IMG/VR virus record: IMGVR_UViG_3300025118_000143
Coordinates: 1-24,475 of that record
DNA: 24,475 nt
Source: a virus
Strand: one strand, 5' to 3'
Position numbers and translations under genes: made by a program
Notes under the pieces: model-generated
The model's input: the letters and a program-made list of their open reading frames with translations, nothing else
The model's database searches: none
Told to the model about the DNA's origin: nothing
Part shown: positions 1,118 to 13,618 of the stretch, piece after piece
Layout: each line of letters opens with the position of its first letter
How positions within the stretch are numbered: the first letter of the stretch is position 1

Positions 1118-1326
1118 ACTTATTAAATACATTTGCTGCTGCATCATTAGATCTTAATGAAGCATGGAACCTTTCATGGGGTGAAGGTATTCAGTTTATA
1201 CTGGTACTTGCCTTTGTGTATTGGTTGAAGGTGAAGATAGATACAAGAGCAGGTCTTGGTAAGAAAAAACTAAGACAGTTAAAGACAGTCATTAAAGAGG
1301 CAATCCAAGAAGCCAATGATACCTGA
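1114..1326 (+). CDS. Single-pass membrane protein, unknown function (70 aa)
   Basis: A 70-residue protein whose ATG overlaps the preceding stop codon (ATGA). Residues about 26-40 are hydrophobic with aromatics (FILVLAFVYWL), followed by a basic helix (KKKLRQLKTVIKEA) that would lie on the cytoplasmic side by the positive-inside rule. Its 3' end overlaps the start of the 295-aa gene by 11 bases. The layout of a membrane segment followed by a charged helix resembles the 88-aa protein, but the sequences are not clearly related. Function unknown. Confidence 0.75.
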   Translation: MNLLNTFAAASLDLNEAWNLSWGEGIQFILVLAFVYWLKVKIDTRAGLGKKKLRQLKTVIKEAIQEANDT

Positions 1327-2203
1327 TAATGTAGGAATACAAGGAAATCCGAATATAGGTATCAGAGATATCCATATTCGAAAACCTTATATAGGTCAAA
1401 TTGGTGATGCTAGAGTGTGGATGATACAACCACCACAAGCAATACCAGTAGAAGTCCCTGTTACTGTATTTGTTGGAAATCCTATTGTTAATATGCCTGG
1501 TTGTGTAGAAACACACGAAGAAAATACCAGGGATAATAAAAATATGAACCTGGTGAATGATGATCCAAAAGGAGTAACTATATTATGCGATTCTGGTGCT
1601 CCCAGTATGCATTCTATTGATTATCAAGCAGATAAACTACAATGGCAAACTTTTTATGCTCCAGAAGAACTAACAGAAGGAGTAAATACTGGTGATCCTC
1701 CTGTAGCACCTACCCCAGAGACTCCTGAACCCCCCAGCACGCCTCCTCAAACAGCAGAAGATGTAGAATGTCCTCCACCCAATGCTAGACGTGTTGGAGA
1801 CTTAAATCAGGCAGGTACAGAGAGAGTAAAGGAATATAAACTAATCCAAGAAGGAACAATATGCGAAACTGTGTGGGAACCTATTCCCTTTGTTGATCAA
1901 TATTTGCCTAGTCCAGCTATTGTAACAACTACTGCGACCATTGCGGCGGTGGCAACTGGATCGGCCCTCCTAGCAAAGCCTCTGGCTGATCTTCTTCTAA
2001 AGGTTGTGAAGCCGGTTGTGAAAAAGGCCATCGGAGCCGTGCAAAAAATCCTTGGGAAGACGCCTTACCGCTCAACTCAATCTGAGATTCGGACGAATAA
2101 GTATCGGGAGAAGAAGGGACTTCTTGGGATAAATTTTGCGAAACAACATCAGAAGGCTGAGAAGGCTGAGAAGGAACGGAAGAAGAAGGAGTCTCAAAAG
2201 TAG
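1316..2203 (+). CDS. Conserved-type cyanophage protein, Pro-rich linker and C-terminal membrane segment (295 aa)
   Basis: Begins MIPD, overlapping the previous gene by 11 bases. From the N-terminus it has: a beta-rich Ile/Val/Pro region with the motif IVNMPGCVE at about residues 58-66; a proline-rich linker at about 125-157; a hydrophobic segment at about 199-222 (IVTTTATIAAVATGSALLA); an amphipathic stretch with KPLADLLLKVVKP; and a very basic Lys/Glu/Arg tail. I recall similar proteins in other T4-like cyanophages but no assigned function. The last 275 bases overlap, on the opposite strand, the 3' end of the exported protein gene at 1929-3035. That stretch looks richer in G+C than its surroundings. 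Membrane attachment is an inference. Confidence 0.8.
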   Translation: MIPDNVGIQGNPNIGIRDIHIRKPYIGQIGDARVWMIQPPQAIPVEVPVTVFVGNPIVNMPGCVETHEENTRDNKNMNLVNDDPKGVTILCDSGAPSMHSIDYQADKLQWQTFYAPEELTEGVNTGDPPVAPTPETPEPPSTPPQTAEDVECPPPNARRVGDLNQAGTERVKEYKLIQEGTICETVWEPIPFVDQYLPSPAIVTTTATIAAVATGSALLAKPLADLLLKVVKPVVKKAIGAVQKILGKTPYRSTQSEIRTNKYREKKGLLGINFAKQHQKAEKAEKERKKKESQK

Positions 2204-3035
2204 GTTTAGGTAAAGTATGATTATGAGGAATAATAGTTCCGGGAGGCGTCATAACTACCACATCCGCACATATAGATGCATAGGGGCTTTTGGGGTGGAA
2301 CATTATTCCCGCTTTCATGAGTTCCCCACAGTTCTTCAAACGGGCTATCTCAAAGTCTAATCGCTTGTTCGCTGTTAATTGCTTCTGTTGATTAATTTGA
2401 GTTATTGCTGCTTGCTTACAAAGATTCTGTAACTTCCTATCAAGTGGTAAGGAAAGAGTAGCAGATAATCCAAGGTTAAAATTATTATTAGCAGTCATAT
2501 CAGTACGTACTGGTTTTTGCCAAACTACCTCACCAGGATTGTCAGGAATACCATCAGGTCCATCTACTTCTACCTCAATCTGCATATCATCTCCATCATT
2601 CCACCAACGATCTGCATTACCGTCTTCATCTACATCATATTTGGGATCATTGGGATCTGTTCTTACCCTATCATCATACCAATCTTCCCAAGGATAGTTC
2701 TTTACCGTAACAGTCTGAGTTGTAGTTCTACCAGTGAAATCTGTATTATTGTATTGCGGTTGATTATATGTCCTTTCGAATGGATCCTTCCATGAATTAC
2801 TATATTGGATATATGGCGTAAAGTTAGCAGTAGGACCCTGACAACTTATCGCATTACCATACGTATTAGTTACGTATGGACCTTGGAGCACCTGTATGGC
2901 TTGATTGGTTACCGAGCCAGAGGAGTTCGCAATCGGATTAGCAGTAGCTGATACTCCACCAACACTCTCTGCTAATGCAATACCAGGATTAACTATACCT
3001 ACAAAAGTTGCTGCTATTGCGTAAACGTACTTGTT
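1929..3035 (-). CDS. Exported protein with Ca-binding-like loop; start codon unresolved
   Basis: The frame is open from ATG 3329 to the stop at 1929, but the first ~98 residues from 3329 read as an Arg/Asn-rich shadow of the 156-aa gene. Natural protein sequence begins at NKYVYAIAATF (3035), a signal-peptide-like stretch ending in IALA before ESVGG. No ATG, GTG or TTG is in frame between 3329 and GTG 2891, which would remove the signal; the codon just before NKY is CAC. Features after the signal: an Asp-rich segment with DVDEDGNADRW, like EF-hand or thrombospondin-type calcium loops; a helical Gln/Lys/Ala region (LTANKRLDFEIARL); and a Ser/Pro/Gln-rich tail lying antisense to the 295-aa gene. 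A -1 shift from the 156-aa frame would also reach it. Role unknown. Confidence 0.65.
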   Translation of the reverse strand, partial: NKYVYAIAATFVGIVNPGIALAESVGGVSATANPIANSSGSVTNQAIQVLQGPYVTNTYGNAISCQGPTANFTPYIQYSNSWKDPFERTYNQPQYNNTDFTGRTTTQTVTVKNYPWEDWYDDRVRTDPNDPKYDVDEDGNADRWWNDGDDMQIEVEVDGPDGIPDNPGEVVWQKPVRTDMTANNNFNLGLSATLSLPLDRKLQNLCKQAAITQINQQKQLTANKRLDFEIARLKNCGELMKAGIMFHPKSPYASICADVVVMTPPGTIIPHNHTLPKPTFETPSSSVPSQPSQPSDVVSQNLSQEVPSSPDTYSSESQIELSGKASSQGFFARLRWPFSQPASQPLEEDQPEALLGGPIQLPPPQWSQ

Positions 3036-3484
3036 GTGTCTGTGACGCTTTCTATAGTGGTTGTTCTTTGAATTATTGTCTGGTTGGTCATACCGGGCCC
3101 TGAATAACTCTGGGTAAATTGAAAGGCCGCTCCTGGATCTGATATTGTGAAACTTCCTGCGCTGTCCAAATCCAAGGAATCGAACGAACTTGTCACGCTT
3201 CCTGTTGCCCCGTCTGTTCCTGACACTGAACCCACTGCTGGAGTCACCGTCACACTTGTTGTATTCACATTGGGGTTCAACGCTGCTCCGTTGTTTTCTA
3301 TTCCTACCCCAGTCACTGTGTATTCCCATCCTGTCCTATAGTCAATTGAGTTAATAGTTTCTGTCACGGTAGAACTTGTCTCCGTATGGGTCGTCATCGA
3401 GCCCTGGCTGAAGTTCGGGACCACTGGCACCGCAAGGACTTTTGCGGGCATTAATAACAAAAATAGTAGAAGAAACTTCTTCAT
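3014..3484 (-). CDS. Small exported protein, paralogue of the 171-aa neighbour (156 aa)
   Basis: Starts with a textbook signal peptide: MKK, then LLLFLLLMPAKVLA with likely cleavage after ALA-type residues at about 19. The mature part is Thr/Ser/Gly-rich, beta-like and free of cysteine. Two segments match the upstream 171-aa protein: a Tyr-Thr-Val-x-Gly segment near the start (WEYTVTG against STYTVSG) and a GAAFQFTQSY segment against GSAFSFSESY. The start lies seven bases after the stop of that paralogue. The 3' end overlaps the signal-like start of the next exported gene by 22 bases in another frame. Codon choice is richer in G+C than the baseplate genes. Function unknown; a surface or virion component is possible. 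Confidence 0.8.
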   Translation of the reverse strand: MKKFLLLFLLLMPAKVLAVPVVPNFSQGSMTTHTETSSTVTETINSIDYRTGWEYTVTGVGIENNGAALNPNVNTTSVTVTPAVGSVSGTDGATGSVTSSFDSLDLDSAGSFTISDPGAAFQFTQSYSGPGMTNQTIIQRTTTIESVTDTTSTFTQ

Positions 3485-3490
3485 TCTACT

Positions 3491-4006
3491 TTAACGTACT
3501 GTTATCTCACTAACAAATTGTCCCGTAGCTGAGGTGCCAGCACCACCGGCTGTTAGAGTCATGGCACCCGCACTGGTAATAGTACCAGCCAATGTACCAG
3601 CAACACCACCGGAAGAAACGAAACTTGTACCGTATGCTGGCATATCAGCCACAACACCAGCAGTTACGTCAACACCAGCTCCCATTGCTGCTATCGCGTC
3701 CCCTTGGGTGTATGATTCGCTGAACGAAAATGCCGAGCCAGCTGTATTAACATCATACGTACCAACGTCTAATGTTGGTGCAGCAGTAGCACTACCGGCA
3801 GTTAGAGCACCGAAGTGTCCACTGTTGGAAGTATCGACTTTAATATTAGAACCAGATACCGTATAAGTTGATCCCAGCCTCGTGCCACTTGTGTAAGCAC
3901 CGTCAACTGCAAGTTGAGTTGATGTCGTCAATCTATGGACCAAATCAGCACGTACTGAAGTCGCTCCTAGGAATAATAAAGAAGTCATTAGTAAGATCTT
4001 CTTCAT
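3491..4006 (-). CDS. Small exported Ala/Gly/Thr-rich protein (171 aa)
   Basis: Begins with a clear signal peptide (MKKILLMTSLLFLGATSVRA, cleavage likely after residue 20). The mature chain is rich in Ala, Gly, Ser and Thr with alternating beta-type pattern and no cysteine, suiting an extracellular or periplasmic beta structure. It is a divergent tandem paralogue of the 156-aa protein downstream, from which it is separated by six bases. The antisense 110-aa frame at 3534-3866 is a shadow caused by repetitive codons. No enzyme motif is visible and I do not recognise a named family. Confidence 0.8.
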   Translation of the reverse strand: MKKILLMTSLLFLGATSVRADLVHRLTTSTQLAVDGAYTSGTRLGSTYTVSGSNIKVDTSNSGHFGALTAGSATAAPTLDVGTYDVNTAGSAFSFSESYTQGDAIAAMGAGVDVTAGVVADMPAYGTSFVSSGGVAGTLAGTITSAGAMTLTAGGAGTSATGQFVSEITVR

Positions 4007-4054
4007 TGTGTAAACACGTTAATTGCTTTATTAATATATAGGTGCTTTTACTAC

Positions 4055-4603
4055 TTAATCAGTATTATACCAAAGAGATAGCACAAATCTTTCTGCATCC
4101 TCTACCTTACTAACATAATGTAAATATTGAGAATTTGAGAATATTAGTAGTTTTCCAACCTCAGGTTTTACTCCAAAATCCTCAAATATAGTGTCCCCAC
4201 CCTTAAAGTCATCATTAAGATATAACATAGCAGCAAAAATATCTGGATTATGAATATTATTATCATCCAAATGAGGTTTCATAAAAGTTCCAGGTGGCCA
4301 CCTCACAACCCCAACATAGTCTAAATTCGATTTCTGCTCAAATGTCTTGCAGAGTGAATTTACCCTTTCTATCACTCCGGCAAATATTTCATCATTTGTA
4401 GCTTTTATGTCTGTAGGGTCAACATCCCCACCAAGATATACTGCTGTATGATCCTTCCAATCTACTGTAGTTAGATATGTGTCTCCTCCTCTCTCTTCAC
4501 ATCCATAAGGCATTTCCTTCTTATTTGCCTTTGAATGACTTATGAATAATTCACAAATATCGGGATTTATAAAATTTTCTTCAATATAACGTATTTTACC
4601 CAT
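4055..4603 (-). CDS. 2OG-Fe(II) oxygenase, prolyl-4-hydroxylase-like
   Basis: A 182-residue protein with the features of the 2-oxoglutarate/Fe(II) dioxygenase superfamily (P4Hc type). The iron ligands are readable as H111 and D113 in the PHLDD motif and H162 in YLHYVSKV; R172 (ERFVLSLWY) is the expected 2-oxoglutarate-binding basic residue. The family hydroxylates proline or other side chains, or nucleic-acid bases, using O2 and 2-oxoglutarate. Such genes are common in T4-like cyanophages but their substrates are not established. The ATG overlaps the end of the 50-aa gene upstream by eight bases, so the two are probably co-translated. It has no signal peptide, so it would act in the cytoplasm. 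Confidence 0.88.
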   Translation of the reverse strand: MGKIRYIEENFINPDICELFISHSKANKKEMPYGCEERGGDTYLTTVDWKDHTAVYLGGDVDPTDIKATNDEIFAGVIERVNSLCKTFEQKSNLDYVGVVRWPPGTFMKPHLDDNNIHNPDIFAAMLYLNDDFKGGDTIFEDFGVKPEVGKLLIFSNSQYLHYVSKVEDAERFVLSLWYNTD

Positions 4604-4748
4604 TTACACGAAATCCACCATTTTTCCATTTCCCAAAATACTCAAAATCCGGTATTTTGGGTTTTTTAATAAACTTATCGTTTTCTATCTTATATCCATA
4701 ATATTCACATATTTCCAAATAAAATTTTGAGTATTTACTGGTGTTCAT
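4596..4748 (-). CDS. Small basic/aromatic protein, unknown (50 aa)
   Basis: A 50-residue protein starting at ATG 4748 (MNTSKYSKFY...), rich in Lys, Tyr and Phe. The frame stays open upstream to 4895, but that extension crosses a terminator hairpin and the 3' end of another gene and encodes a Cys/Trp/Arg-rich shadow, so I chose the internal ATG. It overlaps the 2OG oxygenase start by eight bases and sits just after the terminator-like element, so it heads a two-gene unit. Function unknown; a partner of the oxygenase is possible by context only. Confidence 0.55.
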   Translation of the reverse strand: MNTSKYSKFYLEICEYYGYKIENDKFIKKPKIPDFEYFGKWKNGGFRVNG

Positions 4749-4753
4749 TGTTT

Positions 4754-4831
4754 TAAAAAAGTAATAGGGCAAAAAATGCCCTGACTTTTTTTTCGGGCTT
4801 TTATGGAACCAAAAATCGAAATAATATATCA
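4754..4831 (-). repeat. 78-base 3'-end element, copy A
   Basis: Aligned without gaps to 12197-12274, 59 of 78 bases agree. The right end is a perfect 20-base match (4812-4831) that starts, on the minus strand, at the TGA stop of the glycine-zipper gene. The left end (AAAAAAGTAATAG and following) is also nearly identical. The middle has diverged, yet each copy keeps A-run/T-run pairing. Its position exactly at a gene end suggests a 3'-UTR or terminator module. Confidence 0.85.
4755..4793. terminator. Bidirectional intrinsic terminator hairpin
   Basis: Stem AGGGCA (4766-4771) pairs with TGCCCT (4777-4782) around a five-base loop. On the plus strand it is followed by eight T (4786-4793). On the minus strand it is followed by ATTAC and then six T (complement of 4755-4760). 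For the minus operon this would end transcription of the glycine-zipper gene before the 50-aa/oxygenase pair. A further CGGGC just right of the T run can compete for the same stem, so alternative folds exist. Confidence 0.7.
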
Positions 4832-5272
4832 GCCTCCATCTACAGCACACCCTAACATAGCACCACCGACAATGCCTGTAGGTATTGCCCACCATCTGTC
4901 CTTACCACGGGAACCAAACCCTGCTAGTCCACCACCTAGGAGTCCACCTACAACTGTTCCATCAGAACAATCATTAGTATCTACATCCTCATAGACAGTA
5001 ACGTGCCTCCGATAAGTGGGGTGACGATGAGACTGATGTCCTACGTTTGAATTAGGATCCTCTTGGTACGTTGGAGTATTCTCACAAGGAACCTCAACGG
5101 TTTCCTTCCACGACTTCACGTATCCAGGATCATTTTCAGTACCTGGTACATATTCTTCTCTGTACTCACTCTTAAAACAAGTACGTTGATTGGACCATCC
5201 TGCTTGTGACTCACCTGCTATTGCTGGAGTACAAGCACTAAGGGCAATAAGGGCAGCGAGTGCGATTTTCAT
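4829..5272 (-). CDS. Exported glycine-zipper protein, possible lipoprotein (147 aa)
   Basis: The N-terminus MKIALAALIALSAC is a signal peptide with a lipobox-like LSAC (Cys14); an alternative signal peptidase I site follows AIA at residue 19. The mature protein has a Tyr/Glu-rich middle with cysteines at 32, 63 and 102. It ends in two glycine-rich hydrophobic stretches (about 107-120, GGLLGGGLAGFG, and 132-142, TGIVGGAMLGC), the pattern of glycine-zipper two-helix proteins such as the 17-kDa surface antigen family. Those insert in or bind membranes. The start overlaps the stop of the 68-aa gene as ATGA. The 78-base 3'-end element begins at its stop codon. The phage role is unknown; action on the host outer membrane is an inference. 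Confidence 0.8.
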   Translation of the reverse strand: MKIALAALIALSACTPAIAGESQAGWSNQRTCFKSEYREEYVPGTENDPGYVKSWKETVEVPCENTPTYQEDPNSNVGHQSHRHPTYRRHVTVYEDVDTNDCSDGTVVGGLLGGGLAGFGSRGKDRWWAIPTGIVGGAMLGCAVDGG

Positions 5273-6546: not shown

Positions 6547-7134
6547 TTAATTTACCGCTCCTGCTACAACTACTTGACAATGCCCTTTCTTACCACGTCG
6601 GGTACTATATGAATTCATGTTACAAATACCTGTAATAAAATCAGTTTCTACGTCACCTAACAATCTTAATAAATTATTAGACTGACATGTGAGAGTTTGT
6701 GTTCCAGTTATCTTAATGATACTGGACTCCATCATAATCTGTTGATTAGTCTTGAGAGTGAAGTTACCATTCTCATTAGTGTCACCTCTAGCCTCGAAAT
6801 TTATATTCGTTGCCTTAACATTCAAATCACCATCCTGGATATCAATATTTAGATTACCACTCTCCACTTGAATATTAAATGTAGCAGCATCATCTTCAAG
6901 GTCTTGTCCTACCTTGATATGCATGCCACCAGGTGCTTCAGCAGTAGTCCTACCTGCCCTCTTTCCACTTGCATCCATTACTATGAAATGACGTGGATCA
7001 TAACTATTCTCCAGCATCACAGCATGCCGAACATTATCTTCAGAGACACCACCAAATGACAATCTACCATCAACGGTGGTTTTACTCCAAGCGAAGATGG
7101 TATTCAGTCCAAATAGTCCTATCGGTTTTCCCAT
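6547..7134 (-). CDS. Needle-like beta-repeat protein, possible central spike component (195 aa)
   Basis: Residues about 86-162 contain repeated alternating beta strands such as FNIQVESGNLNIDIQDGDLN, then NVKATNINFEA, NFTLKTNQQIMME and SIIKITGTQTLTC. This is the type of repeat that builds the triple-stranded beta-helix needle of T4 gp5C and VgrG spikes. The gene follows directly after the gp5-like hub gene (TAATG overlap), and that hub protein shows no such beta-helix of its own. I infer that the needle is encoded separately here. The N-terminal ~80 residues could attach it to the hub and the C-terminal 30 residues could form the tip. No His-x-His PAAR-type motif is evident. Confidence 0.6.
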   Translation of the reverse strand: MGKPIGLFGLNTIFAWSKTTVDGRLSFGGVSEDNVRHAVMLENSYDPRHFIVMDASGKRAGRTTAEAPGGMHIKVGQDLEDDAATFNIQVESGNLNIDIQDGDLNVKATNINFEARGDTNENGNFTLKTNQQIMMESSIIKITGTQTLTCQSNNLLRLLGDVETDFITGICNMNSYSTRRGKKGHCQVVVAGAVN

Positions 7135-10100
7135 TAACTTTCTTTAATAAAGATATTCTTACCGACACAATCAATGACTTCAACCATTTTAAGAGGCGAA
7201 AGTTCAGCATCAGTAGGTTCTTCTACCTTCAAGGTGAGTTCGATATCAGCCCCTGCTCCATATTTAGTCGTAATATCCACTTCTGGATACTTAATGAAAG
7301 GTCCATAAGGAGGAGGTCCACATGTAATAATACCACCAGTTGGAGTTAATGTAAAGGGTACAGTTTCTCCACCAATACTAATCTGATCTCCACCAGTATA
7401 TCCAGTACCACAAGTGGTAATTTTAACTGCCTTTCCTACCAAAATCTTAGGTTCACCTCCACTAGGTGGTTTCTTAGGTGTCTCAGAAGGAGCAGTTATC
7501 TCTCCACCACAAGGTAATATATAACCTATATTAGTTGCTGCCCTAAAGGATGAGCGAACTTCTTCTACGTATTCCGTGGCCCAATCACAATAAGTTTGCT
7601 CATTAACTATAGGACCCCCCTTCCTTGCAGCCTCAATGAAACCTTTCCATATATCTTTCTTCATACATGCAAACGCACCTGAATGAGGTTTCTGATTAAG
7701 ATTATTAGAATAACTTACATAATCTTCCTCTGATAGAGGAATAACCTTTTTAGTTCTTGTCTTCTTAGTATCTGGTTTGCTTACAGAGTTTACAGAAATA
7801 GTATGAGTCTCATTACCTCTTTTATTATCACTCTGAGTCCACGTTGTACCACCAATAGTAAGACTCTCTAATGATTTGCCTGATGTATTAGGATTATCAT
7901 TCCAATCATATTTTAATGTAACTGTTCCAGTTCCTTTAACTTCCAGTGCAGTACCATTATTATTGAACTTAACAGATACTCCACCCGTAGTACTCATAAT
8001 AGTAAGAGAAGCATTGATATCAAACCCACCTGCTGAATCATCATCAAACTCAAGTCTCTTACTATTAGAGAAGCGTTTATCACCAGGAGCCTTCAATCCA
8101 TTATAGGTAATAGGAACTGAAGATTGTCCTTTAACACCAGGAACTATATACTCTTCTGATTCACAACTCAAACCCTTTCTATATCTCTTAAGTTGGTTCA
8201 AGTAATTCTGAACCCAATGTTCCATACCACCCTTATCAACATACTTTCTTGCTTCCTTGTATGGTGTCTCATTATGGTAATCTGTTTTACGTACCTTATT
8301 TTTGTCACCAACCTCATTATAAACTTTAACAATCTCACGTATAAGAGTGTTCCTTTCTGAACCAATAATATGTCCCCACTGCTCAGAATAAGTCTCAACA
8401 CCATTCTTCTTCCTAAACCACCTACACTTCTGATAATCTGCGTTATCATCCCTTTGAGTTTCTGGGTTACATGGAAGAGCAGTCTTTATAATCTCTTGCT
8501 GCTCTACATTAGTAGATAATCCCTGCCCTATAACCTCTGCCTTATCATCATCATAGGTACAAATAGTAATATACATTTCATATAATCTACCTGCTTTATC
8601 ATTACACCTTTTCTTAACAACCTCTCCATTAAACCAGTCCTCACTACCAGTTACAAATTTAAGATCAATAAGTCTATACCATTTTGTCTTAGTCGTATCA
8701 ATACCTTGACTATAACCATACCCCTGTGGAGTACTATAAACTTCTACTTCATAATCATATACAAAATACCTGTAGTTATTCTTTTGAATATTATATGGGT
8801 CTGCCTGCTGCTCAACAGTCATTCCACTATTATGATTATAAGCACCTCTGAACTTTAACCTAGTTCCATCAGCAAGATCTGCTCTCCATGGATCAAGAGT
8901 TCTATAATTCTGTCCAAGAACATTCTTTCTTTGTCCTCCTCCCTTTACTTTTTCATTAGCAACAAACCCTTCAGCACCTATCTTAGTCTGTTCCCAAGTT
9001 TGTAATCCTGCTGTACCAAACTTACCATGATCTTCAATCGGTGTCCCATTAATACTACGTAACTCTGCTTCCTTAAACAGATTTAATATCTCTGTGTTAC
9101 CCCCAATTTCTGGATTGATATTCATCCAGTTACCCGTCTGGAATTCCAGGATATTACTAACCTTTCTATCAGTAACAGCATCACGAAGACTAAGGATAGG
9201 TCCAGCACCAAGACGAGATCCATCTGTTACCTTTGCGAAACCTTTATAACCTTTCCTTAAGTTAATCTGAATAGACTTAATCTTACCTGGTTTCTTACCA
9301 CCACTATTCATTACAGGAAGTTGTCCCCATGATGGGTCATCCAACAACTTCTGCATGTTCCTGCCTATCTTTCCTTGCTTATGAACTAAGAAAGCACTTG
9401 ATTGTCCCCTGTCAGGATCACCCTCAAGATAGTATCTAATATCTGCATTACTAAATCCTGCTGCCTTTGCATTCCTTAAATCATCACCAGCACCAAATCC
9501 ATTATCAACAACACCAGTATCTGCTCCCTGGGGCCCAGGAATAATCTTCTTCCCACCACGATGATCAAAGTTATGCATCAACCGAAGTGCTGCATAGTCA
9601 ACAATATTACTACCCGCTGGTGGAACTATAGACTTTCCATCTGTTGTTATAGCACTAGTAGGAAGCATACACTTAGTACCAGTGGGTAGATAAACCACAC
9701 CTCCTGGTGGTACTGAAATTCCAGTACCAGGTTCAAATGGATAGAAATTACCCTCCTTATCCTTTATGATAGTACTATTTCCCTCTGCATATGTTCTACC
9801 ACTACCACCAACACTACCATCAGGAGCACCTAAGTAATTGGAACCAGGTTCAAGTACATCAATATCTTTAATAGCATATGTCCATGGTGTATTAGTTTTA
9901 TCAGGATTATCCCAATCTAAATCTGCTTTTACAACTCCGCCTTTCCCTTTACCACTAGTATCATCAACCACACAGTAAGGAATCTCACTAAACCCTTTAC
10001 CACCCCTTGTTAGTTCAACAGAAAGAATCTCTCCATCACTTCCGATTACAGGATTAGCAGTAGCACCATTACCATTACCACCAAATATAGTTATCTTTGG

Positions 10101-11909
10101 TGGACCATTCTGTGAAGGTCCAGTCTCACAACTACCACCTGCTAACCTTTGTCCTCCTATCTGCTTATCAAATGCTAACTTAACAAGTGCTCCACCACCA
10201 GGGAAAACAATATCAGCAGCAAGAGCAGCAGCATCAAGTGTATCTCCCTGCTCTAAGAATGACTTTGCTACATTAAGTACTGACTCTCCTGTTGTACCAG
10301 GCATAGACTGAATCCCTGGTAAATTCTTTGCAAGGTTAAGAGTATCAGTAATCCCACCTATTCCACCAAGTTTAGAGAGATTTAAATTATCACTATTGAT
10401 AGCAGTATTAAAAATACTATTGTTATTCAGAAAACTACTACCACCTTTTACCAATGCTCCACTAGCAGGTATAGCAGCAGCAATATTCTCAAGAATGTTT
10501 CCATCCTTTACTTGAGAAGGTATCTCCGCCAGAGAACCAGCAAGAGCACTAATATCCTTTATCTTTGTTGCAGGTATAGGTTTCTCTCCTTCCATCAATT
10601 TCTTATAAGAGGTACTGAAATTAGCAATACCATCTAGGTTAATAGAAATACCACCAAAGGCATTCAATCCTTTGGTCATCAAACCACCAATAGTTCCTCC
10701 CATATCAGGAGGAAAATCTCCACCTGACGCTGCTGATAAGACACTATTAACAGGCCCCATCATCTTATTCATAGTACCATCAAGTTCAGCAATAGTCTTA
10801 CCAACTAATGCACCTGTATAGGATTCAGCAACACATGGTGGTTGACTAACAATCTTATTAGCAGCATCTTTAATAAAACCAGCAGCATTTCCTGGTAACT
10901 TATCAACCATTCCATTAAAACTACCAATAACACCACCAATAGCATCAGCATATTCTTCCTTCACCTTAGCCATCTCAGACAACTTACCAAACGTTGCAAC
11001 ATTTGACATCATTTTAGATGTTGCTTCAAGTGTTGCTGCTCTCATCTTCTCCGTTCTATCCTTCTGATCAGTTGCAATGATGCGTGATGCTCTCTTCTGC
11101 TCACGCTCCATTGTTTTATCAAAAAGTTTATTCGTAGAACCATCGACCTTTATACCATCATGTGCTTTAACAAATGTTTCTATCTTTGATAGGCGTTTCA
11201 TCACCTTATCAGTACCCGCAAAGGGATTACGATCATCAGAATTATCTGCTGCCGTCATGTCACCTGTTGCTTGCAGATTATCGTGACGTGACTTAGATGC
11301 TTTAGCACGAACATCTTCAGCCGCACCCCTCTCAAGTCTTACTACCTCTGTTGGTACTGTCTGTGTTCTTTTAACTCCTGTATTACCTACCTCAGTAGTA
11401 GCATCTCCTACTGGTTGTCTTTCAACTGTACCATCTTTCTTTAAATCTGATAAAGGTGCAACTCTCTTGTTACTAAACCCACTAAAAGGTTCGAACCTAC
11501 TTGTTTCAGGTACACTATCTCTCCAATCATTCTGTGTGGATTTATCCATCACACCAATGATTACTGGTTGCTGTCCATCTTCTCCATCTAAGAAGAATCC
11601 AAACACCCACTCACCACCAGTAAAAGCAAGTGATTCAGAGAAACCACCTGTTCCTCCACCCGCACTGGTAGGCATCAAACAATATGCCCAGGGCAAATCA
11701 TCATTCTTAAGATCATTCTTACTATCAGTATGCCACCCAAGAATTGATACCTTTACCCTCCTCTTAAATCCAGGGAGGTCTGATAAAAGATCAACAGGAA
11801 GTGGAGGGTAATTATCCCTCCAGGTTTCTGCTTCACATACCTGGCCAAGCCACCATATGAAACCATCCTTACCGATGTTATTATTCTTTAACAGACCCTC
11901 ATCAATCAT
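7134..11909 (-). CDS. 5: Very large gp5-like baseplate hub protein (1591 aa)
   Basis: Residues about 15-130 form a gp5/VgrG-type OB-fold: a strand with RRVKVSILGWH, then LPWAYCLMPTSAGGGTGG, GEWVFGFFLDGEDGQQPVII and GVMD, closely paralleling T4 gp5 (PW...P.TSA...G...V.G.FLDG). About 240-600 is helical and Ala/Gly-rich, almost tape-measure-like. Near 620-720 and again near 1500-1540 are Gly-rich strands of the type GxGYxxGD. About 1280-1375 looks like a beta-sandwich. I find no lysozyme domain, unlike T4 gp5 (575 aa), and no terminal beta-helix. The ATG overlaps the CP12-like stop codon as ATGA. It should sit at the centre of the baseplate on the gp27-like hub. Confidence 0.8.
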   Translation of the reverse strand: MIDEGLLKNNNIGKDGFIWWLGQVCEAETWRDNYPPLPVDLLSDLPGFKRRVKVSILGWHTDSKNDLKNDDLPWAYCLMPTSAGGGTGGFSESLAFTGGEWVFGFFLDGEDGQQPVIIGVMDKSTQNDWRDSVPETSRFEPFSGFSNKRVAPLSDLKKDGTVERQPVGDATTEVGNTGVKRTQTVPTEVVRLERGAAEDVRAKASKSRHDNLQATGDMTAADNSDDRNPFAGTDKVMKRLSKIETFVKAHDGIKVDGSTNKLFDKTMEREQKRASRIIATDQKDRTEKMRAATLEATSKMMSNVATFGKLSEMAKVKEEYADAIGGVIGSFNGMVDKLPGNAAGFIKDAANKIVSQPPCVAESYTGALVGKTIAELDGTMNKMMGPVNSVLSAASGGDFPPDMGGTIGGLMTKGLNAFGGISINLDGIANFSTSYKKLMEGEKPIPATKIKDISALAGSLAEIPSQVKDGNILENIAAAIPASGALVKGGSSFLNNNSIFNTAINSDNLNLSKLGGIGGITDTLNLAKNLPGIQSMPGTTGESVLNVAKSFLEQGDTLDAAALAADIVFPGGGALVKLAFDKQIGGQRLAGGSCETGPSQNGPPKITIFGGNGNGATANPVIGSDGEILSVELTRGGKGFSEIPYCVVDDTSGKGKGGVVKADLDWDNPDKTNTPWTYAIKDIDVLEPGSNYLGAPDGSVGGSGRTYAEGNSTIIKDKEGNFYPFEPGTGISVPPGGVVYLPTGTKCMLPTSAITTDGKSIVPPAGSNIVDYAALRLMHNFDHRGGKKIIPGPQGADTGVVDNGFGAGDDLRNAKAAGFSNADIRYYLEGDPDRGQSSAFLVHKQGKIGRNMQKLLDDPSWGQLPVMNSGGKKPGKIKSIQINLRKGYKGFAKVTDGSRLGAGPILSLRDAVTDRKVSNILEFQTGNWMNINPEIGGNTEILNLFKEAELRSINGTPIEDHGKFGTAGLQTWEQTKIGAEGFVANEKVKGGGQRKNVLGQNYRTLDPWRADLADGTRLKFRGAYNHNSGMTVEQQADPYNIQKNNYRYFVYDYEVEVYSTPQGYGYSQGIDTTKTKWYRLIDLKFVTGSEDWFNGEVVKKRCNDKAGRLYEMYITICTYDDDKAEVIGQGLSTNVEQQEIIKTALPCNPETQRDDNADYQKCRWFRKKNGVETYSEQWGHIIGSERNTLIREIVKVYNEVGDKNKVRKTDYHNETPYKEARKYVDKGGMEHWVQNYLNQLKRYRKGLSCESEEYIVPGVKGQSSVPITYNGLKAPGDKRFSNSKRLEFDDDSAGGFDINASLTIMSTTGGVSVKFNNNGTALEVKGTGTVTLKYDWNDNPNTSGKSLESLTIGGTTWTQSDNKRGNETHTISVNSVSKPDTKKTRTKKVIPLSEEDYVSYSNNLNQKPHSGAFACMKKDIWKGFIEAARKGGPIVNEQTYCDWATEYVEEVRSSFRAATNIGYILPCGGEITAPSETPKKPPSGGEPKILVGKAVKITTCGTGYTGGDQISIGGETVPFTLTPTGGIITCGPPPYGPFIKYPEVDITTKYGAGADIELTLKVEEPTDAELSPLKMVEVIDCVGKNIFIKES

Positions 11910-12160
11910 TCGTCGTATACTCTACACTCAAATGCATCTGGATGATTCTCACAATATTGATCAAGTTTCTTATCTTGATGTCTTAAATGATAATCATTAA
12001 TACCAGTTTCAGGTTCATCACCTTTATGATACTCATCATAAAAAGCGTGAGCCGTTTTCAAATCTTCCTCAGTGTACTCAAGCATACCGTGATTGATGTG
12101 CTCTTTCTTGTCCTTAGGATCTATATAGACCTCGTGGTCTAAATCGTGCTTAGTAGTCAT
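11906..12160 (-). CDS. CP12-like protein (84 aa), C-terminal GAPDH-binding motif only
   Basis: The C-terminus YCENHPDAFECRVYDE (residues 69-84) matches the C-terminal motif of CP12: two cysteines (C70, C79) with eight residues between them, Pro-Asp-Ala in the loop, and ECRVYD at the end. In CP12 this disulphide loop and tail bind GAPDH and, with PRK, shut down the Calvin cycle. Cyanophages are known to carry cp12 as an auxiliary metabolic gene. The first ~65 residues are acidic and His-rich and lack the N-terminal cysteine pair and the AWD-VEEL core of full CP12. A late-type box lies 21 bases upstream and the stop overlaps the gp5-like start (ATGA), so it is expressed with tail genes. Confidence 0.7.
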   Translation of the reverse strand: MTTKHDLDHEVYIDPKDKKEHINHGMLEYTEEDLKTAHAFYDEYHKGDEPETGINDYHLRHQDKKLDQYCENHPDAFECRVYDE

Positions 12161-12180: not shown

Positions 12181-12188
12181 TATTTATT
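12181..12188 (-). promoter_or_regulatory. Putative T4-type late promoter (AATAAATA)
   Basis: On the minus strand the sequence reads TATAATAAATACG; AATAAATA matches the late core TATAAATA at 7 of 8 bases. The box ends 20 bases before the ATG of the CP12-like gene, as in the box at 352-359. An overlapping TATAAT exists, but no -35 hexamer is seen 16-18 bases upstream. It would drive the CP12-like, gp5-like and downstream genes. Confidence 0.55.
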
Positions 12189-12196
12189 ATACTATA

Positions 12197-12274
12197 TAAA
12201 AAAGTAATAGAGCAAAAAATTACCGCGATTTTTTTACCGGCTATTTCTTGTTTGAAAATCGAAATAATATATCA
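12197..12274 (-). repeat. 78-base 3'-end element, copy B
   Basis: Gapless match to 4754-4831 at 59 of 78 bases, with a perfect 20-base block (12255-12274) starting at the TGA of the gp27-like gene. The middle differs: the GGGC stem of copy A is lost, and AAAAAAT (12214-12220) can pair with ATTTTTT (12228-12234) instead. It lies between the hub gene and the late box of the CP12-like gene, where a 3' end plus new start would be expected. Confidence 0.85.
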
Positions 12275-13618
12275 AGGGCGTGCTGCTTTCTGAACCCCAA
12301 AAGAATCACGAATCAAATTCATTGTAGTCCAGGACCTATCAGGTGTAACCTTATGGCACAGACTAGAGATTAAATAGAGTCCACTCGTCTCCTTACTAGG
12401 ACGCTCTGTCTTCGTACCAAGACTAGGGAACTCACACCACACTGTTTCACCTGCCTTCAATGAAAAATTAGCCTCCACCATAACATCCACACTAACAGAA
12501 AAGATTTGATTATATCTAGTGATTGCCTGAACCATTCTCTCCTTCACCTTATCATTAGTCTCTTCCTTTTTCAACTTCCATTGAGCAAGTTGTTTAATAC
12601 CTGCTATACCACCAGGACCAACCATAGTTCCAACATCAAGGATAGAACTCAATCCTCTAGTAGGACCTGCTCTAAATTCTTTTGCAACAAAATCCAATTC
12701 ATTACCAGCAGTCTTAACATTATTCTTTTGCTCCTTAGTCATAGAAAAATCAGTCTTCTTTACCTCAAAGGTAAAAGGATTAAGGAATAAAAACGTAGCA
12801 TCATAAGCACCAACAGCAAGTTTCTCCTGCACATTAATATTCTTATTCACATTATACACGAATATCTTTTCATATCCTTCTTTCTTTTTATCTGTTTGGG
12901 TAAACTCATACTTACCAGAATTTTTCTTATCTGCACTCCCACCACCTTGTGTTGGTCCAACTAAAGTATCAATAGACTTAAACTTATATCCATCTTGTGT
13001 CTCAAAGAAAAAGAACCCAGCAGTCTTTCCATACCCTTCTGTTGGGATAGACTTAGTTCCTAACCAAGTCAGGGTATAAAAACATTTCTTGATATTACCA
13101 ATAAAATTATAAGAATTTGATGTCTCCTCAATATCATTTTTCTTATTAGTCTTGAGAACATTCTTAAGAATGTTCTTTATAGTCTCAGAAATCTTACCAC
13201 TATATCTTTTAACTACTCTTGCCTGCTCATTAGCAAGGAACTCTTTGGTACATAAGTCCATAGCAAAAACATTTCTAGTAGTATCTCCAAGAGCATCTCT
13301 AACAGTATTCACATAGAATGCATCCTCTTTACCAACATACTTTAATATGTTACCTTTTGGATCTTTTAAGTTAACTCTTACTGCTTCACCACCTCTAACT
13401 GGTAATCCATTCAATAAATCTTTCATATTCTTCCCATCACCAACAGTATTACCTGTGTCACCTACTACTATAGTAGCACTAACATGATTAGAAAGAATGC
13501 TTTCATAATAAGTGAACTCTATCGTTCCTGTAGATATATCAATACCCTTTCCACTCTTCCAACCAGTGATTGAGAGTTCTTTAAATTCTACCTTCTGTTG
13601 TTTTTGTTTTGCTGCCAT
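12272..13618 (-). CDS. 27: gp27-like baseplate hub protein (448 aa)
   Basis: A 448-residue protein in the place expected for the hub gene, slightly longer than T4 gp27 (391 aa). The N-terminus is a hub/VgrG-type beta domain (KELSITGWKSG, TIEFTYYESIL, HVSATIVVGDTG), followed by AVRVNLKDPKGN and a second domain with FAMDLCTKEFLANEQARV. The C-terminus has the usual strand VWCEFPS and GLYLISSLCHKVTPD. T4 gp27 forms a trimeric torus that joins the tail tube to gp5. Its ATG overlaps the preceding stop (ATGA), and the 78-base 3'-end element begins at its stop. The assignment rests on these patterns and gene order, since overall similarity to T4 gp27 is weak. Confidence 0.7.
   Translation of the reverse strand: MAAKQKQQKVEFKELSITGWKSGKGIDISTGTIEFTYYESILSNHVSATIVVGDTGNTVGDGKNMKDLLNGLPVRGGEAVRVNLKDPKGNILKYVGKEDAFYVNTVRDALGDTTRNVFAMDLCTKEFLANEQARVVKRYSGKISETIKNILKNVLKTNKKNDIEETSNSYNFIGNIKKCFYTLTWLGTKSIPTEGYGKTAGFFFFETQDGYKFKSIDTLVGPTQGGGSADKKNSGKYEFTQTDKKKEGYEKIFVYNVNKNINVQEKLAVGAYDATFLFLNPFTFEVKKTDFSMTKEQKNNVKTAGNELDFVAKEFRAGPTRGLSSILDVGTMVGPGGIAGIKQLAQWKLKKEETNDKVKERMVQAITRYNQIFSVSVDVMVEANFSLKAGETVWCEFPSLGTKTERPSKETSGLYLISSLCHKVTPDRSWTTMNLIRDSFGVQKAARP

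Follow-up and report, generated by a model that had tools for sequence, protein, structure and literature searches.

A T4-GC 63-type cyanophage cp12 in a recurrent slot between tail protein and gp5 genes

The analysed stretch of viral DNA, hereafter the window, comprises 24,475 nucleotides (IMG/VR record IMGVR_UViG_3300025118_000143, positions 1 to 24,475) and carries on its minus strand a short open reading frame at 11906..12160, which begins with an ATG at 12160, stops at 11906 and encodes a protein of 84 residues (MTTKHDLDHEVYIDPKDKKEHINHGMLEYTEEDLKTAHAFYDEYHKGDEPETGINDYHLRHQDKKLDQYCENHPDAFECRVYDE). Its matches to Pfam CP12 and phrog_2603 and its identity with PSSM2_066 assign the gene as cp12 of the T4-GC 63 / phrog_2603 type. 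Two structural genes flank it on the same strand: a tail protein gene at 12272..13618, upstream, in the position of T4-GC 15 (phrog_350 tail protein, E 2.3e-87), and a gp5-like baseplate hub / tail lysozyme gene at 7134..11909 (phrog_1922, E 4.8e-65). The ATGA coupling of cp12 to the hub gene noticed in the first-pass annotation is real and constitutes an overlap of the two reading frames. The hub protein is very long (1591 aa); hub family matches cover residues 1-705 only, and residues 1274-1384 match head/virion-protein PHROGs, which suggests an added C-terminal domain. Elsewhere in the window, a 2OG-Fe(II) oxygenase gene, a type common in cyanophages, lies at 4055-4603 (minus strand; PF13640, E 5e-11), and three nearby minus-strand ORFs within 3014-5272 (3014-3484, DUF6322; 3491-4006; 4829-5272) start with signal-peptide-like sequences. 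The converging ORFs at 1316-2203 (plus) and 1929-3329 (minus) overlap by about 275 bases, and the true start of the longer one is probably internal, at a stretch resembling a signal peptide. Scans of the window for Rfam families and tRNAs gave no hits.

The C-terminal end of the short protein (LDQYCENHPDAFECRVYDE) contains Cys70 (codon 11953..11951) and Cys79 (codon 11926..11924) with eight residues between them. The proposal that this end is the CP12 C-terminal disulphide motif has been borne out by a profile search, in which the Pfam CP12 match reached 32.6 bits (curated cut-off 22.7, E 1.4e-7), and by the structural database, where the significant PDB matches were CP12 chains only (3zdf, 6gfo, 5nmu, 3qv1, 6kez, 2lj9, 3b1j), that is, CP12 chains of GAPDH complexes and related entries, the remaining matches being weak and at chance level. 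The Pfam alignment joins residues 60-83 to profile positions 47-70 of 70, hence the C-terminal part of the domain only, and the CP12 assignment rests on about 24 C-terminal residues. The phrog_2603 match (E 3.8e-19) spans residues 3-84, while a search of NCBIfam with the protein found nothing. Across all six frames of the window the CP12-tail pattern is found a single time, and 60 shuffles do not contain it at all. The structure predicted from the alignment was uninformative (mean pLDDT 50.5), and such a low value is to be expected for a conditionally disordered protein.

Among phage records, tblastn returned PSSM2_066 (P-SSM2) and PRTG_00050 (P-SSM5) at 69% identity, and the similarity to PSSM2_066 is nearly full length (residues 4-84, E 1e-27). 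The P-SSM2 record labels this 267-bp gene as T4-GC 63, which Sullivan et al. listed as the CP12 of P-SSM2 in 2010 (PMC3037559). IMG/VR holds 59 relatives with 66-90% identity. All 29 aligned family members match Pfam CP12 at E<=1, and both cysteines (70 and 79), H73, P74, D75, E78, V81 and Y82 are invariant among them. Purifying selection is strong, with pairwise dN/dS against the window gene of 0.06-0.18 for pairs with unsaturated synonymous sites. CP12 family membership is thus shown, at the level of sequence, through the C-terminal hairpin. Three contigs of metagenome-assembled genomes titled Actinomycetota, Flavobacteriales and Gammaproteobacteria (L078, L079, L080) also encode this phage type of CP12 at 64-88% identity; they are probably phage contigs wrongly binned.

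The first-pass annotation regarded the rest of CP12 as absent. This is correct for the classical N-terminal half: the N-terminal cysteine pair was not found in the window protein, whose only cysteines are Cys70 and Cys79, and the AWD_VEE core is likewise missing from its sequence, whereas classical CP12 of plants, S. elongatus and Thermosynechococcus (PDB 3b1j, 6gfo, 6gve, 3qv1, 6kez) has both in addition to the C-terminal GAPDH-binding hairpin common to the two. However, such an absence is normal, and the N-terminal part is not featureless. When the S-CREM1 CP12 was used as a query against 386 cyanobacterial genomes, 58 had a match, and all 30 of the matching proteins that were examined contain just two cysteines and lack the AWD motif; lack of the classical half is therefore the norm here. 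C-terminal-only forms, including those of cyanophages, are described in a CP12 review (PMC3906501). The marine picocyanobacterial protein (CP12-C or C(M), PMC3906501) shares the hairpin, the two cysteines and the lack of AWD with the window protein but is shorter, without the phage-specific N-terminal block and the INDYHxRHxDK segment. A profile-profile comparison of the window family with 30 host and 7 phage CP12s gave a match over 50 columns (probability 97.3, E 1.7e-11), while the upstream part alone, with the hairpin removed, gave E 0.12; homology of the middle part to host and GC337 CP12 is possible on this evidence.

Conservation within the family is concentrated in two blocks. The C block (residues 54-84, 11909..12001, minus strand) combines the INDYHxRH segment with the CP12 hairpin and aligns with CP12 chains in GAPDH complexes of known structure. 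The N block (residues 5-29, HDLDHEVYIDPKDKKEHINHGMLEY; 12074..12148, minus strand) is rich in histidine and specific to this phage type of CP12. In 29 sequences the N block has 15 invariant positions out of 25 and the C block 17 out of 31, against 2 out of 24 in the linker between them, and seven histidines of the window protein are invariant. Among phage records the N block is confined to the family of the window protein; it has no counterpart in host CP12 and no homology to a known binding module or family. CP12 of P-SSM2 and P-SSM5 (T4-GC 63; phrog_2603) possesses both the N block and the hairpin. The T4-GC 337 proteins (S-SM1, P-HM2, S-CREM1, Sf-CH8, S-TIM5; phrog_627) share the hairpin, but their N-terminal half is of the marine-host type (SIDEHI...RHxxEEL..L..Y) and lacks the HDLDHEVYIDPKD block. 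In the phrog_2603 proteins of ACG-2014f, RB11-B and S-B05, the C block KI(S/D)DWHxRHxDKxLDxFC is held in common with the window protein, while the N-terminus is shorter and different.

Late co-expression of a metabolic gene with tail parts had seemed unexpected in the first reading. The place beside gp5 is, however, a usual one for cp12 in cyanomyoviruses: known cyanophages, and over half of the relatives, repeat the order tail protein, cp12, gp5. A homologue of the window tail protein occupies the same slot in many cyanophages. In Sf-CH8, a GC337-type cp12 is enclosed by the tail protein gene and gp5 and briefly overlaps each of them, an arrangement close to that of the window; in S-SM1, S-MbCM6 and S-CREM1, the same tail gene is followed by cp12, and one or a few genes then intervene before gp5; and by coordinates it directly follows the tail gene also in S-H25, ACG-2014e, ACG-2014b, S-IOM18 and S-RIM12. 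The hub begins within about 100 nt after cp12 in 30 of the 59 IMG/VR loci and in four of six single-cell virus contigs, and 0.9-1.8 kb downstream in eight more relatives. In locus L037, cp12 precedes ORFs of 133 and 651 aa resembling, by length and position only, the baseplate-wedge pair adjacent to cp12 in P-TIM68. Other placements also occur: cp12 lies among small non-structural genes in loci L028, L040, L052, L057, L058 and L075 and in P-SSM2, where PSSM2_066 is found near pebS and, unlike the window gene, does not adjoin gp5, and the phrog_2603 gene of ACG-2014f is not beside the tail gene. The interval between the tail protein gene and gp5 is a landing slot conserved for cp12, and residence there does not signal a structural role.

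A promoter-like site precedes cp12 on the minus strand (12181..12191, 27-31 nt before the start codon), where a AATAAATA box at 12188..12181, 27-28 nt before the ATG, is overlapped by a TATAAT at 12191..12186. Over the 50 nt preceding cp12, ATAAATA has a density of 7.8 per kb, in comparison with 0.22 over the loci, a 36-fold difference. Of the distinct cp12 upstream regions, 12 of 19 outside the strict slot contain the motif, as do 4 of 22 within it, where short gaps are the rule. The 440 kb hold five TATAAT/ATAAATA composites, four of them upstream of cp12; the window supplies one of these four, and the pattern had been picked after seeing the window. The late promoter motif of cyanomyoviruses is NATAAATA, and their middle mode of expression has been proposed to stem from early and late promoters that overlap (PMC2984593). 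The statement that the gene sits behind a late-type box is accurate as regards the presence of the box, but the box does not fix late timing: ATAAATA was also found upstream of the P-HM2 cp12, which belongs to the middle expression cluster and ranks among the most highly expressed in light (PMC5082946). Where an intergenic gap exists, as in the window, a promoter-like box of its own may allow transcription of cp12 independently of the tail operon. A stretch of about 60 nt ahead of cp12, within 12190-12271 (minus strand), shows strong conservation with L015, the nearest backbone relative. This stretch was considered as an RNA element (folding z-score -0.67) and as a repeat (its 25-nt core recurs in the L015 contig and in no other viral contig), and both ideas were dropped.

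The window gene is, very probably, a cyanophage cp12 of T4-GC 63 type that would act as a Calvin-cycle inhibitor and whose position does not point to a structural role. The earlier suggestion of a slimmed Calvin-cycle inhibitor agrees with the family placement, with the occurrence of the CP12-C type in phages and marine picocyanobacteria and with T4-GC 63 having already been called CP12; GAPDH binding, redox dependence and the metabolic effect would follow from what is known of the family. By analogy, with Cys70 and Cys79 oxidised, the CP12 tail would fold and dock on the host photosynthetic GAPDH (Gap2). Docking would inhibit GAPDH, with or without bridging to phosphoribulokinase, and the resulting slower Calvin cycle would spare NADPH and ATP and might favour pentose-phosphate flux for phage nucleotide synthesis.

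The alternative raised in the first-pass annotation, reuse of the motif in the virion, would make the protein a small baseplate or hub component produced together with gp5, its hairpin serving assembly or disulphide stability. The tight linkage to gp5, the ATGA overlap and the order tail, cp12, gp5 in about half of the relatives are consistent with such a role. A virion part fitted to the hub is, however, opposed by the way in which these genes diverge. For 25 loci with the slot, cp12, the hub N-terminus and the tail protein were compared in a Mantel co-divergence test. The divergence of hub and tail was correlated (rho 0.72, p 0.0005), while that of cp12 was correlated neither with the hub (rho 0.04, p 0.33) nor with the tail (rho 0.14, p 0.10). 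The shortness of cp12 is not the cause, since agreement between hub and tail persists (0.56-0.74) when they are cut down to 100-column slices. On average, pairs of cp12 proteins are 73% identical, as against 39% for N-terminal hub sequences and 33% for tail proteins. L015, the relative with the closest backbone, has a hub 78% identical to that of the window and yet a cp12 only 79% identical, and in L008 the corresponding values are 30% and 88%. Rate differences alone would not yield such discordance, so cp12 seems to move between phages while keeping to a fixed slot and, judged from these comparisons, to behave as an independent metabolic cassette. The presence of the same gene among small non-structural genes in P-SSM2 and several IMG/VR loci also argues against a virion role. 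Within the portion of PMC3037559 covered, the proteins detected in S-SM1 virions include the flanking GC15 and gp5, but CP12 is entered under carbon metabolism. Virion reuse thus finds no support beyond gene order and appears most improbable.

A second alternative is a refinement of the Calvin-cycle inhibitor more than a contradiction of it. The protein may be a two-part regulator. GAPDH would be bound by the C block, as in CP12, and the invariant N block would contact a second partner, be it phosphoribulokinase, a different host protein or a metal, and would either stand in for the PRK-binding N-terminal half of classical CP12 or hold the complex shut in the reducing conditions of light-grown cells. 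Invariance in the N block equals that in the C block, and the linker joining them varies; the seven invariant histidines of the protein and the confinement of the N block to this family among phage records point the same way; against this, it is without homology to a known binding module, and its function is entirely conjectural. We consider the two-part arrangement rather unlikely, and the same doubtful standing applies to the more specific idea that the histidine-rich block is a phage-specific contact or metal site in place of the PRK-binding half. If true, it would perhaps allow Calvin-cycle shutdown in light. In any case, a conserved N block without a CP12 counterpart may mean that this type of CP12 does something more than, or different from, other CP12s. 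As for a non-functional remnant or a chance resemblance to CP12, the match is indeed short and limited to part of the domain, but this idea is left with next to no credibility by the 59 IMG/VR relatives, by cysteines that never vary, by strong purifying selection and by a Pfam score above the cut-off, and it is refuted by the conservation.

The window cp12 is largely already known, both its T4-GC 63 type and the location of cp12 near gp5 having been recorded in 2010 (PMC3037559). The seeming paradox of a metabolic gene within a late tail operon is removed, as the slot has long been used by cp12. Both cyanophage CP12 families in PHROGs, 627 and 2603, carry the label 'unknown function', and many phage records name the gene hypothetical; this labelling is an annotation gap that keeps a common metabolic gene out of sight in many phage genomes. 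A possible middle timing of cp12, conferred by the composite early/late-type box, is a question that could repay work. The N block is the less described part of this phage CP12 type, absent from the CP12s described in the literature covered, and it could repay experimental work.
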